Below are positions 53,106 to 60,438 of a stretch of 64,000 bases of DNA, one piece after another; position 1 is the first letter of the stretch, and every line of letters begins with the position of its first letter. Position numbers and translations under genes: made by a program. The notes under the pieces are model-generated. The model worked only from the letters and a program-made list of their open reading frames with translations. It did no database searches and was not told the DNA's origin. Where the stretch lies: NCBI RefSeq assembly GCF_003151255.1, contig NZ_CP029481.1, positions 3,501,001 to 3,565,000 on the forward strand, given 5' to 3'. This DNA comes from Microvirga sp. 17 mud 1-3. Lineage in GTDB: Bacteria > Pseudomonadota > Alphaproteobacteria > Rhizobiales > Beijerinckiaceae.

Positions 53106-53756
53106 TCATGCGGCCTTCTTGGTGGGCCAGCCGAGCTCCACCAAGCGGGCCTTGGCGAAATCGCGGATCTCGTCGCGCACGCCCTCCGGCAGGTCGTTCA
53201 GGATGCGCTGCGTATCCGCATGCAGCATCAGGTCCGTCACGGCATTGATGCTCTTCGCCTTGCCGATCTTCTCTTTGAGACCGGCCTCGACATCCGCATC
53301 GGACCCGACGATCTCGACCGCGTTCTTGTCGGCCGCGGGAAGCGGCTCCCCATGGGCCGGGCGGCTGTTCTTGAACTCGTCCGCCTCCTCCTCGGAATAG
53401 ACGAGCCCGTGAAGCTCGATGAGCTTCAGGATCACACGGTCCTTCGCCCGCTTCTCGGCCATGGCATAGACATAGGCTGCCTGCTTGCCCGAGACCCGGT
53501 AATTCGTGCCCACGAGAGCCTCGCCAATGGACCATTCCAGCCGCTCGCCCATGCGGCCCGTCACCAGGATGACGGCCTCGTCCCGTTCAGCGCGGACGAT
53601 GGTCGGCGGTTCGAACTGGATCGCGGCCTGGGCGGCGATGCGCTCCAGCGCCTTGTGGTAAATCACGGCCGTGCCCTGGACCCGCCAGACATTGCCCGCC
53701 ATCGGCTCGCCGAACTTGGCCAAAACCTCGGCAATCTTCTTGTCGGTCGTATTCAT
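53106..53756 (-). CDS. ERF/Rad52-like single-strand annealing protein (putative)
   Basis: A 216-residue cytoplasmic protein. Residues about 30-125 show the pattern of single-strand annealing proteins: strands around RAERDEAVILVTGRM and the helix YVYAMAEKRAKDRVILKLI, which parallels the AE-x-R-A-x-x-R motif of ERF/Rad52-type annealases. The C-terminal part is acidic, then basic. A LexA box at 53828 lies 72 bases upstream, and GAGGAA precedes the start. Homology is judged by eye, so annealing activity is an inference. Confidence 0.6.
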   Translation of the reverse strand: MNTTDKKIAEVLAKFGEPMAGNVWRVQGTAVIYHKALERIAAQAAIQFEPPTIVRAERDEAVILVTGRMGERLEWSIGEALVGTNYRVSGKQAAYVYAMAEKRAKDRVILKLIELHGLVYSEEEADEFKNSRPAHGEPLPAADKNAVEIVGSDADVEAGLKEKIGKAKSINAVTDLMLHADTQRILNDLPEGVRDEIRDFAKARLVELGWPTKKAA

Positions 53757-54772: not shown

Positions 54773-55771
54773 TCAAGTGCGGGCGTGCCGCTCCACCGCT
54801 TCGTCGAGAAGCGAGCGCACGATGGCGCGCACCGCATCCGATGCCTCGCCGGCGGAGAACCGCGTCTCGATCTCGTCGCGCAGGATGGCGCCGTCGCCGC
54901 TCCGCTTCAGCTCGGTCGCGGTCTCGGCCTGGAGCAGGGTCACGAAGGCGCTCTCGACCGCCTGCGCCACCGCCGCCTCGTCGGCGGCCTCGACCATGCG
55001 CCCCGTGAGATCGAACACATCGGCCTGGAAGGGCAGCGGCTGCGGGCTCAAACTCCCGTCGGCGCCGAGGATCCAGGCGCGCGGCACATGGTCCACCAGG
55101 TCGACGGATTGGCGCGTGATATTGCCGGGATTCATCCAGCGGGTCCGGCCGGCCGTCACGCTCTTCTGCGTCTTGTGGATGTGGCCGTTGACCAGAAGAT
55201 CGCATCCCTCCACGGCGAAGGGCGGAACCGCGCCCGGATAGCCGCCCTCGAAGGCGATGTCGTGGTGGCTGAACCAGGCCTGCCAGTCCACATCCGTGAA
55301 GGAGCCGCGGATGTCGGTGGGAATGTCCTGTCCGTAGGGCGTCATGCCGATGCCGATGCGGCGCTCGCCGATGCGGTAGGCAGCGACCGGCGCTGACGCC
55401 GCAACCACATCGACCACGTCGCACAGGCCGAGGAGCGCGAGGCTGTCTCCGTCCGTCAGGGTCATGTGCCGGATGTCGTGGTTGCCCACATTCACGACGG
55501 GACGATGTTTGAAGCCCTTCAGGATGCGGACGAGCTGGTTCTTCAACGCCACGTCGGTCTCGACCGGGCGGTCGAACAGGTCGCCCAGGATGACCACCGC
55601 GAGGTCCTGCGCATTGGCGATGCCGACGCAATGTTCGAGCTTCGCCAGGACAGGCTGCGGCCAGAGTTCGTCCTTGCGCCGGCCCGGACGGCGGGAGCCC
55701 ACATGGGGATCACCGATCACCAGAAGGCCGTTGCAGGCGCGGGGTTCGAGGCGGTCACCGGAGAGGATCAT
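54773..55771 (-). CDS. Mre11/SbcD-like metallophosphoesterase
   Basis: A 332-residue calcineurin-like phosphoesterase. Metal ligands: Asp21 and His23 in IGDPHVGS, Asp64 in LGDLFDR, Asn97/His98 in GNHD, a His in WFSHHD (169-170), and His197/His199 in NGHIHK. All positions of an active two-metal site are present. The C-terminal 70 residues are helical and may bind the ATPase. Its ATG overlaps the ATPase stop by four bases, so the pair is coupled as in sbcD-sbcC. It probably acts as a nuclease on broken or branched DNA. Confidence 0.9.
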   Translation of the reverse strand: MILSGDRLEPRACNGLLVIGDPHVGSRRPGRRKDELWPQPVLAKLEHCVGIANAQDLAVVILGDLFDRPVETDVALKNQLVRILKGFKHRPVVNVGNHDIRHMTLTDGDSLALLGLCDVVDVVAASAPVAAYRIGERRIGIGMTPYGQDIPTDIRGSFTDVDWQAWFSHHDIAFEGGYPGAVPPFAVEGCDLLVNGHIHKTQKSVTAGRTRWMNPGNITRQSVDLVDHVPRAWILGADGSLSPQPLPFQADVFDLTGRMVEAADEAAVAQAVESAFVTLLQAETATELKRSGDGAILRDEIETRFSAGEASDAVRAIVRSLLDEAVERHART

Positions 55772-57594
55772 GCGGTCATGCGCTCCATGGCGGAATGGGC
55801 CTGGTGGTCCAGAAGAGTCTCGGCGCTCACGGGGCCGCCGCAGGTCGGGCAGAGGCCGCCGCTTTCCTCGACGAGCTGCGCCATCTCGGCTCGAAGGACT
55901 TCAGCTTCGGCATCGATCCGGGTCAGGCGCTCGCGCGCATCGGCGCCGCCGCGCGCCAGATCGGCGATGTGGGTCAGGATGTCTTGCGCCGGCGCGGGAT
56001 TTTCAAGGCCCGGCAATGCGCCCGGCAAAGCCTGCAGGCAGGACAGGCGCGCCTCGGCACGGCGCAGGCGCTCCGTGGTTTCAAGAACCGCGCGGGCAAT
56101 GCGCTGCCGCTCCCCGTGCCGCTGCAGCTGAAGGCCAAGGGCCGCGACGCTTGCCGGATCGGGCAGCGCCGCCGTGGCCTGCGTCCGGGCCCGGGCCCGT
56201 GACAGATTGCGGGCGAGATCCTGCAGCAGGGTGTGCACACGCCCAAGGGAATCGAGGCGCCGTTCCGCGTCCCCGATCGCGACGGCGCGCTTCTGCGCGT
56301 CCGCGAGAGCGGCCTTCAGGCCGTCGAGGACCGTAAGAGATTCGAGTTCCTCCTGCAGGGCCGCGAGCTCCCGCTCACCGTTGCGCACCAGCGCATTGTC
56401 GCGGGTGCAGCGCTCGCGGTGGATCGCCAGCATGTCGCGAATGTAGCCGGCCTCCTGCCCGATGGAGAGAACGGCCGAGCGGCGCGAGGCGGGCTCACCC
56501 AACAGGAAGACCGGAAACTTCTGGTGCGCGATGTGGACGTCGAGATCCTCAACCTTCCGGATCTGGAACAGCTCCGCCACCCAGTCCGGCACCGCGCGCC
56601 CGCCGGACTCGTAGCGCATGCCCTGCCGCTCCACGACGCTGCCGTCCGCTTCGTGCAGCGACCAGACATTGACGGGCGTGCGGCGCGGCTGGCGCGTGAA
56701 GCGCAAGATCCGCCGTCCGGCGACGCCGATCTCGACAATCGCGGCCTTCGCGCCGGCGCGCACGAGACTGTCGCGCGCCTCGCCGTAGAACACCGCGCGC
56801 AGGGCACGGATGAAGGTGGACTTGCCGCGATTGTTCGGCCCGATCAGCGCATTGACGCCCGGGCTCAAGGGAAGCGTCGCGTCCGCATAGGCCTGGACAT
56901 TGACGAGGCGGATGAAGCGCAGCCCCGGCGCCGCATCGTCGTCCCAGAGCGCATCGCAATCCGTGGTCTCGACCGTGACGCCGGACATGGGCTCGCCGGA
57001 AATGCGCGCGATGTGGAAGCGGTCGGAGAATTCCGACAGGTCGTGATGCGAAACCGCGAAGCACTGCACGCCGAGCCGCCGGGCGCCGTCCTCGAGAACA
57101 CGGTAGAACGACGCGACCCGCTCGGGCGCGATCCAGCAATCGGCCTCGTCGAGAGCGAGGAAACGCGCGACATCGGCCTTCACGACCGCGATAAGCCGCA
57201 AAGCCATGCCGACCACATTGGTGAGCGCGCCGCCATTGTCTTCCAGCACATCCTCGAGATTGCCGTCGGGACGCCGCACGCAGATGTCGAGCGCCGCAAG
57301 GCCACGCTCGGTCGACAGGTCGAGAGCAACCGGCTTCTCGCCCGGCAGGACCTCCTGCACCAGGGCCGAGAGGAGCGTCTCGAACGCTTCCAGGTTGCGC
57401 CGGCTGGCGCTGCCATGAACGGCCTCGATGAAGGCCTCCACCTCGTCCTTTACGGCAAGGCGGCCCTTGGCAAGTTCGATCTCTCGCGTCAGCTCGTCGC
57501 TGCGTGTCTTCAAGGCGTCGCGCCGCCCGTCGAGCCGCGCCAGCGCCGCCGCCGCGCGGGCGACTCTCTGGCCGACCATCCCGGCATCCGTCAC
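55768..57594 (-). CDS. SbcC/Rad50-like ATPase with circularly permuted domain order
   Basis: A 608-residue ABC-type ATPase. Motifs in sequence order: short N-terminal coiled coil (1-60), signature-like NGGAL (120-124), Walker B FLALDEAD (145-152), H-loop AVSHHD (180-185), then Walker A GPNNRGKST (252-260), Q-loop Gln358 in HIAHQKFPVFLLGEP, a long coiled coil (about 390-580), and a zinc-hook motif CPTCGGP (582-588) near the C-terminus. Normal SbcC/Rad50 runs Walker A, coil, hook, coil, signature, Walker B, so this chain is permuted with its ends at the hook. GTG start overlapping the upstream gene (GTGA). It likely works with the Mre11-like partner in break processing. Confidence 0.88.
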   Translation of the reverse strand: MTDAGMVGQRVARAAAALARLDGRRDALKTRSDELTREIELAKGRLAVKDEVEAFIEAVHGSASRRNLEAFETLLSALVQEVLPGEKPVALDLSTERGLAALDICVRRPDGNLEDVLEDNGGALTNVVGMALRLIAVVKADVARFLALDEADCWIAPERVASFYRVLEDGARRLGVQCFAVSHHDLSEFSDRFHIARISGEPMSGVTVETTDCDALWDDDAAPGLRFIRLVNVQAYADATLPLSPGVNALIGPNNRGKSTFIRALRAVFYGEARDSLVRAGAKAAIVEIGVAGRRILRFTRQPRRTPVNVWSLHEADGSVVERQGMRYESGGRAVPDWVAELFQIRKVEDLDVHIAHQKFPVFLLGEPASRRSAVLSIGQEAGYIRDMLAIHRERCTRDNALVRNGERELAALQEELESLTVLDGLKAALADAQKRAVAIGDAERRLDSLGRVHTLLQDLARNLSRARARTQATAALPDPASVAALGLQLQRHGERQRIARAVLETTERLRRAEARLSCLQALPGALPGLENPAPAQDILTHIADLARGGADARERLTRIDAEAEVLRAEMAQLVEESGGLCPTCGGPVSAETLLDHQAHSAMERMTA

Positions 57595-57887
57595 GGTTCG
57601 CTCCCCAATTGCCGCAGACGGGTCTCGACCTCGCGCAGGACGGAATCGAATTCCTCGACACGTTTCGCATTCTCGGACAGGGCCGCGTCGATCAGTCGCC
57701 GCAGCTCTGCTTCGTCGTCGGTGCCGAATTCCTCGCGTGCCCTGGTGCGGGCCTGGTCGAGCTCACGCGCCAGCCTGTCGACCTCGCCTTCAGCGCGGAT
57801 CCGTTCGGCACGCAGGCGCTCGAAGGTGGCGCGCATCTTCTCCAGCCGCCCGAGACTGTCGTTCTCCGGGCGTTTCAGGCTCGTCAT
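57591..57887 (-). CDS. Small coiled-coil protein, partner of the permuted ATPase
   Basis: About 98 residues, almost all alpha-helical coiled coil (LEKMRATFERLRAERIRAE, LARELDQARTRAREEFG, then a second helix pair). No cysteine, so no zinc hook. The stop overlaps the ATPase GTG by four bases, so it is translated together with it. It could be the missing part of the descending arm or a regulator of the complex. The ATG at 57887 has GGAG upstream; an earlier ATG at 57923 lacks one. Function is inferred from position. Confidence 0.75.
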   Translation of the reverse strand: MTSLKRPENDSLGRLEKMRATFERLRAERIRAEGEVDRLARELDQARTRAREEFGTDDEAELRRLIDAALSENAKRVEEFDSVLREVETRLRQLGSEP

Positions 57888-58064
57888 CGTCGGGCGTCTC
57901 CATTCCACGGTGCGGCGATTCATCCATCAAGCTGAGCAGTAAAGAGCCGCGAGAACTTTTGTCGTCATCTCGCAGGCCGCCAGCACGATCCCTTTAATCC
58001 TACGCCACTGTTTCCCACATAATATCCGTTACTCCGAGATTACAGCCCGCGCGAGCGCATTTGC

Positions 58065-59853: not shown

Positions 59854-59931
59854 GGAACCGATGTCCTCGTTCGGGGCAGGAGAGCGAAACCGACCTGACA
59901 GACGTCAGGAGAGATGAAGTGGAGATGTCCC

Positions 59932-60438
59932 ATGGCGGGCAGTGTGAACAAGGTGATATTGGTGGGGAACCTGGGGCGTGACCCTGAGGTGCGCCGGCTG
60001 AATTCGGGCGAGCCGGTGGTAAACCTGCGGATCGCCACCTCGGAGACCTGGAAGGACAAGGCCTCGGGCGAGCGCAAGGAAAAGACCGAGTGGCACTCGG
60101 TGGTAATCTTCAACGAGAACCTGGCCCGGGTGGCCGAGCAGTACCTGAAGAAGGGCTCGAAAGTCTATATCGAGGGGCAGCTGCAGACCCGCAAATGGCA
60201 GGACCAGAGCGGGGCCGAGAAATACACCACCGAGGTGGTGCTGCAGCGCTTCCGCGGCGAGCTGACGATCCTGGACAGCCGCGGCGGCGGCTCGTCGGAA
60301 TATGGCGAGGAGGAGCAAGGCCAGGTCAGCCGCGGCGGCGAGTTCGGCCGCTCCTCGCCGATGGAGCGCCGTCCGGCGGCCGCACCGAGCGGCGGCGGCT
60401 CGCGCTTCAACGACCTCGACGACGACATTCCGTTCTAG
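59932..60438 (+). CDS. ssb: Single-stranded DNA-binding protein
   Basis: A 168-residue SSB. The OB-fold begins [18 protein letters not shown] and ends near residue 110; a Gly/Ser/Arg-rich linker follows, and the acidic tip is DLDDDIPF, the docking peptide for repair partners. The start at 59932 follows the family N-terminus, with GGAG upstream; 59914 is another possible start. It coats single-stranded DNA in replication, repair and recombination. The LexA box at 59839 implies damage induction, and a terminator follows. Confidence 0.97.

Follow-up and report, generated by a model that had tools for sequence, protein, structure and literature searches.

Models of Rad50 and SMC proteins place both coil strands and both ATPase lobes in one chain, which turns back on itself at a hook or hinge, and the canonical signature of the ATP-binding cassette (ABC) ATPases has the consensus LSGG. 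Natural permutation of a P-loop NTPase is known from another branch, the circularly permuted GTPases, which have no coil or hook. In phage 0305phi8-36, one P-loop ATPase segment of the SbcD/SbcC fusion (A7KV18) was not observed, according to the excerpted text of the 2011 report (PMC3175470). Here we analyze a 64,000-nucleotide stretch of the Microvirga sp. 17 mud 1-3 genome (NZ_CP029481.1, positions 3,501,001–3,565,000; hereafter the window), which encodes what is most likely a natural circular permutation of an SbcC/Rad50-type ATPase; its gene stands between two others in an SbcCD-like operon with a predicted SbcCD-type function. No description of a permuted or split SbcC, Rad50, or SMC protein was found in the literature searched, which included few subscription papers and no bioRxiv preprints.

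The open frame of the ATPase runs from 57594 to 55768 on the minus strand, the plus-strand reading of the same interval being interrupted by a stop, and its elements are arranged as follows:

55768..57594, minus strand: permuted SbcC/Rad50-like ATPase, 608 residues, GTG start
56950..57594, minus strand: residues 1–215, putative descending-coil stub (helix 4–47) and C-lobe, from AlphaFold2 elements, a Foldseek match to 1f2u_B, and a phrog_15167 match to residues 9–192
57229..57237, minus strand: signature-like NGG, residues 120–122, with Ser replaced (NGGA, 120–123), from alignment
57145..57162, minus strand: Walker B FLALDE, residues 145–150, from alignment
57046..57048, minus strand: H-loop His183 (SHH, 182–184), from alignment
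56461..56931, minus strand: N-lobe, residues 222–378
56818..56841, minus strand: Walker A GPNNRGKS, residues 252–259, from alignment
56521..56523, minus strand: Q-loop Gln358, from alignment
55864..56457, minus strand: ascending coil, residues 380–577, four helices predicted by AlphaFold
55840..55851, minus strand: zinc-hook-like CPTC, residues 582–585, near the C-terminus, from alignment and low-probability hhalign matches to canonical hooks

Read from the N-terminus, the signature, Walker B, and H-loop come first, Walker A and the Q-loop follow, and CPTC stands near the C-terminus. This order, claimed in an earlier reading of the DNA (the original prediction), is borne out by a 67-row alignment that spans three proteobacterial classes and includes the window protein. 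Gly122, Asp149, Glu150, His183, Gly252, Gly257, Lys258, Gln358, Cys582, and Cys585 are invariant in it, so the permuted order is not due to chance. Both the N-lobe (Walker A and Q-loop) and the C-lobe (Walker B and H-loop) are present in every row, and the relatives keep the same swapped order. The proposed signature does lie ahead of Walker B and retains its glycine pair (66/67 and 67/67 rows), but the preceding residue is Asn in 31 rows, Lys in 22, Gln in 6, Arg in 6, Leu in 2, and Ser in none, so the signature is atypical. Similarly, the proposal that the chain ends lie at the hook holds for the C-terminus, where a CxxC hook occurs in 67/67 rows with 7–58 residues remaining after it, but not for the N-terminus, which begins with a predicted helix of ~45 residues (4–47, AlphaFold). 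We read this helix in the model as a stub of the descending coil, in which case the distal descending coil is missing from the ATPase chain. The ascending coil, residues 380–577, shows breaks between its four helices, a middle part of lower confidence, and Leu-Pro stretches, unlike one continuous coil.

HMMER, hhalign, and AlphaFold2 prediction combined with Foldseek/VIA assign residues ~50–208 to the C-terminal lobe of a Rad50/SMC head and residues 222–378 to the N-terminal lobe, supporting the swapped lobes of the original prediction; neither the profiles nor the predicted structure placed residues 1–220 outside the C-lobe of an ABC ATPase. Several of the individual sequence matches to the C-lobe are weak; the Foldseek match of this lobe to 1f2u_B has E 5.5e-5 and a template modeling (TM) score of 0.68 by target. 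The VIA table consists mostly of N-lobe and long-helix matches, and the absence of other folds from it is uninformative. TIGR00618 (SbcC) is missing from the 17 NCBIfam families that match the window ATPase at E 1 or less. In an hhalign order test against five canonical-order proteins, the N-part aligned with the N-terminal end of all five (probabilities 3 to 95%), the C-part with the C-terminal end of four (3 to 94%; none for L158), and the hook with three (1 to 20%), and no lobe match fell in the reversed place in any of the five. Both lobes matched strongly only in L159 and L160, which are taken to be SMC proteins by length and sequence. A rotated profile performed slightly better than the native one in three of the four matched proteins and equally in the fourth. 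Inter-lobe covariation (263 pairs, effective number of sequences 78) gave no support at the expected strand pair, with artefact columns at 222–225, which are present in both pieces.

We infer from the model that the C- and N-lobes of one chain form one head in cis. A domain swap, in which heads form in trans from the C-lobe of one chain and the N-lobe of a second, would also be compatible with a prediction that covers the lobe folds only and in which cis pairing is not observable; moreover, the lobes are separate chains in the phage forms described below, so inter-chain pairing is possible in the family. The joint region (residues 201–230) is, however, predicted to be ordered, with a block mean predicted local distance difference test score (pLDDT) of 90–94, fitting a fixed cis arrangement, and we consider a swap unlikely.

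A single 4.40-Mb contig makes up the window genome, in which the ATPase gene occurs once. A protein search in which 7,993 candidates were scored yielded 391 relatives at E 1e-3; among the best 120 of these, 119 have 601–615 residues and one has 711. A profile built from six plasmid proteins gave 66 matches, 63 of 619–661 residues and three of 345–368. Of 48 genomes from the genus, 42 carry the permuted gene, and no match has an internal stop, in keeping with the unbroken frame of the original prediction. Even samples of the class and the phylum show it to be rare, with 1/289 genomes (the window's own) and 2/398 (the window's own and one from the same family), respectively. Matches were found in 24 plasmid records, 16 of which were examined. 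The permuted gene is present in 15: Bosea (2), Rhizobium, Methylorubrum, Variovorax, Acidiphilium, Pseudomonas (4), Vibrio, Alteromonas (2), and Aeromonas (2). The sixteenth, from Cetobacterium, has a split form (L007:5965–8027), in which the N-chain is read in two overlapping frames. Two Thermus records, outside the 16, match residues 228–269 only. A broken tandem duplicate would likewise join two incomplete lobes, and a frameshift or misassembly could be read as one chain, but such artefacts are refuted by the single contig, the conservation across relatives and genus, and the invariance of the motifs over three classes, leaving them a negligible probability. The gene represents a real, conserved natural permutation of an SbcC/Rad50-type ATPase.

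The ATPase gene is flanked by two partners:

57591..57923, minus strand: small protein, 110 residues, predicted helical hairpin, upstream, overlapping the ATPase frame by 4 bases, conserved in relatives
54773..55771, minus strand: SbcD/Mre11-like metallophosphoesterase, 332 residues, downstream, overlapping the ATPase frame by 4 bases, five motifs intact

The three-gene set is complete in 46 of 51 genome loci (L013–L063; L064, with a canonical-order protein, was set aside), the remaining five running off contig ends; the phosphoesterase reading at L029 is divided between two frames. The 332-residue partner matches PF00149 with 29.8 bits (cut-off 21.5) and the SbcD-like phrog_100, and does not reach the cut-off of TIGR00619 (SbcD; 15 bits versus 77.65). 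SbcD/Mre11 proteins have five catalytic motifs, DxH, GD, GNHD, H, and GHxH. All five are intact in 10/10 aligned alpha- and betaproteobacterial phosphoesterases, the window's included, whereas the eight aligned partners from gammaproteobacterial plasmids (L002, L004, L005, L006, L012, L162, L163, and L164; a ninth, L161, lies outside the alignment) have all lost GNHD, GHxH, and the full DxH, with GD kept in the three from Pseudomonas and the ATPase motifs retained. On these motifs, the window phosphoesterase is likely an active nuclease and the gammaproteobacterial copies are probably not, making the third operon gene on these megaplasmids, with at least three of its five motifs lost, a possible dead partner. 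The loss would suit a mainly structural role, in which the complex is an SMC-like tether or condensing machine with nuclease activity secondary or lost, but the intact motifs of the window copy and its alpha- and betaproteobacterial counterparts speak against this, and we hold it to be improbable.

AlphaFold predicts helices at residues 19–66 and 71–107 of the small protein (pLDDT 90.2, predicted TM score 0.58). That it might be a remnant of the canonical descending coil found no support and is retained only as a conjecture: hhalign against five canonical-order proteins gave nothing of at least 2% probability, a reversed control was equal or better for L158 and L064, and AlphaFold2 predicts a hairpin, not a single helix. 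The 711-residue P0098, the one candidate for a natural fusion of the small protein to the ATPase, was not used, its small part being seemingly out of frame in the second half.

The genome has a second copy, 99% identical over 511 bases, of the SSB gene that lies ~2 kb upstream of the operon (window 59914–60438), and this duplication may be why the contig ends 2.1–3.1 kb before the ATPase match in 10 of the 51 loci. A 216-residue protein also encoded near the operon (window 53106–53756) has no Pfam or NCBIfam match at E 1 and a chance-level PHROG match (E 0.18).

With respect to canonical SbcCD, TIGR00618 gives two short matches in the window genome, to the profile start only and in frames of 494 and 1163 residues, and TIGR00619 gives none; judging by these profiles, the genome may have no SbcCD-like system besides the operon. 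The TIGR00618 cut-off was exceeded in 0/21 genomes examined and in 1/14 control genomes, and since it is rarely reached even in controls, matches were judged by E-value instead. Strong matches (E about 1e-40) occur only in G013 and G020, where they adjoin an SbcD above its cut-off, and weaker TIGR00619 matches occur in six other genomes of the genus. The operon is dispensable in the genus: in the six genomes that lack the permuted gene, SbcC matches are all weak and short, so that replacement of canonical SbcCD is unsupported.

Within the sensitivity of the scans made, no permuted form was found in phages: tblastn of 50,697 records gave none, 36 stretches from viral contigs included no relative, and a profile scan of viral contigs gave two loci, with frames starting with the N-lobe or of another kind. 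The two halves of the ATPase are instead matched by different PHROG families, phrog_16465 (“exonuclease”) and phrog_15167 (“ATPase”), and many phages have one gene for a chain of N-lobe and coil that stops at the hook and another for a C-lobe chain of ~200 residues. Bacillus phage vB_BboS-125, for example, encodes a 471-residue N-chain ending in the hook, a 78-residue small protein, and a 211-residue C-lobe protein, and in the viral fold library both halves come from phage ctYh54 (359 and 219 residues). In two other phage records, L069 and L071, the N-chain is present, but no C-lobe frame was found in the stretch examined.

Three viral scans were made, keeping 80 of 222 loci, 80 of 326 loci, and 62 loci; they share contigs and their counts are not additive. 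In the first, an N-chain was present in 74/80 loci, with 73 of the 74 ending 2–23 residues past CxxC and none containing a C-lobe. A C-lobe frame was present in 59 loci, always downstream of the N-chain on the same strand, and was not found in 21. In 45 of the 59, a small frame is no more than 60 bases from the C-lobe start; in 12 others it lies upstream within 900 bases, and the remaining 2 gave none. With N for the N-chain, s for the small frame, C for the C-lobe, and M for the phosphoesterase, the gene orders at these 59 loci are N-s-C-M (30) and N-M-s-C (29). The second scan gave a C-lobe in 79/80 loci and N-M-s-C in 69/69 with an N-chain, and the third gave C in all 62, N in 60, and N-s-C-M in 50. 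The N-chain ends no more than 40 residues past CxxC in 73/74, 68/69, and 59/60 cases, respectively, and no frame with both N and C was seen in any of the three scans. The small-protein profile had no match in any C-lobe frame of the 80 first-scan loci. A stand-alone C-lobe profile gave 3,091 protein matches (candidates of ~120–383 residues), the best 120 of which, at 200–211 residues, are too short to include the small protein.

At five loci (L289, L296, L298, L301, and L303) the phosphoesterase and N-chain matches share a frame length and are read as a single frame; of these, only the L298 sequence was read out. There (L298:1678–5714), a 769-residue SbcD::N-lobe fusion is followed by a 99-residue small frame and a 236-residue C-lobe frame ~1 kb downstream. 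The top viral fold match, A7KV18, has the same length as this fusion, and by that length L298 is taken to be phage 0305phi8-36. Its 236-residue C-lobe gene may be the ATPase segment unseen in 2011, which offers an account of that fusion.

The permuted proteins form one clade in both lobe trees (28 rows in each, out of 104 for the N-lobe and 84 for the C-lobe; quick method without bootstrap), with a Shimodaira–Hasegawa-like approximate likelihood-ratio support of 99, which fits one fusion; the root, set by five distant canonical proteins in an analysis with several long branches flagged, does not fix the direction. The permuted operon could have arisen through the splitting of a gene, a rotated gene order, and then a single C::N fusion. 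Moving N-M-s-C, the order of one phage group, two steps round yields s-C-N-M, and joining C to N then gives exactly the permuted operon; the order N-s-C-M cannot be rotated into s-C::N-M. The rotation might have proceeded, for example, by tandem duplication of N-M-s-C and loss of the outer pieces; no intermediate gene order turned up. The permutation thereby suggests an operon-level route to circular permutation.

In the mechanism we propose, the C-lobe leads straight into the N-lobe (C::N), from which the chain would climb one coil strand to the CxxC zinc hook. Two permuted heads most likely close on ATP in the manner of Rad50, and together with the SbcD-like phosphoesterase would process or tether DNA ends. 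The hairpin protein probably lies against the coil at the place of the missing distal descending strand. By analogy, the complex is most likely an SbcCD-type DNA-end nuclease or tether with a multi-chain coil. As a more tentative proposal, one we think somewhat less likely to be right than wrong, the Rad50/SbcC machine may be able to work with no continuous antiparallel coil, and there may be a large, mainly phage class of open-ended, multi-chain Rad50s, comprising a hook-ending chain, a separate C-lobe, and a detachable helical hairpin that completes the arm; the permuted operon would be its rotated, fused descendant, with the nuclease partner dead in some lineages. If the 3,091 C-lobe matches are mostly of the same kind, many phage proteins could be re-annotated as halves of split SbcC. 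The natural permutation and the split phage forms provide ready tests of which connections are needed for ATP engagement, hook opening, and DNA-end processing.

The permuted protein shares with canonical SbcC/Rad50 an ABC-type head (Walker A, Walker B, H-loop, and Q-loop), a coil, a CxxC hook, and an adjoining SbcD/Mre11-like gene. In contrast to the canonical order of N-lobe, coil, hook, coil, and C-lobe, its order is C-lobe, N-lobe, coil, and hook; the distal descending coil is missing, the signature is atypical, and there is an extra gene for a small hairpin. Because it departs from canonical SbcC in order and signature, we file it as a variant. With the split phage forms, such as that of vB_BboS-125, it has in common an N-chain ending at the hook, a small gene ahead of the C-lobe, and an SbcD-like gene in the loci, and the phage C-lobe chain aligns with residues 9–192 of the window ATPase; the phage N and C parts, however, are separate genes with N upstream, never fused in the three scans. 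The 0305phi8-36 protein A7KV18, as far as the excerpted report describes it (PMC3175470), likewise has an N-lobe chain ending at the hook and an SbcD-like domain, but there SbcD is fused to the N-lobe and the C-lobe is apparently a separate gene.
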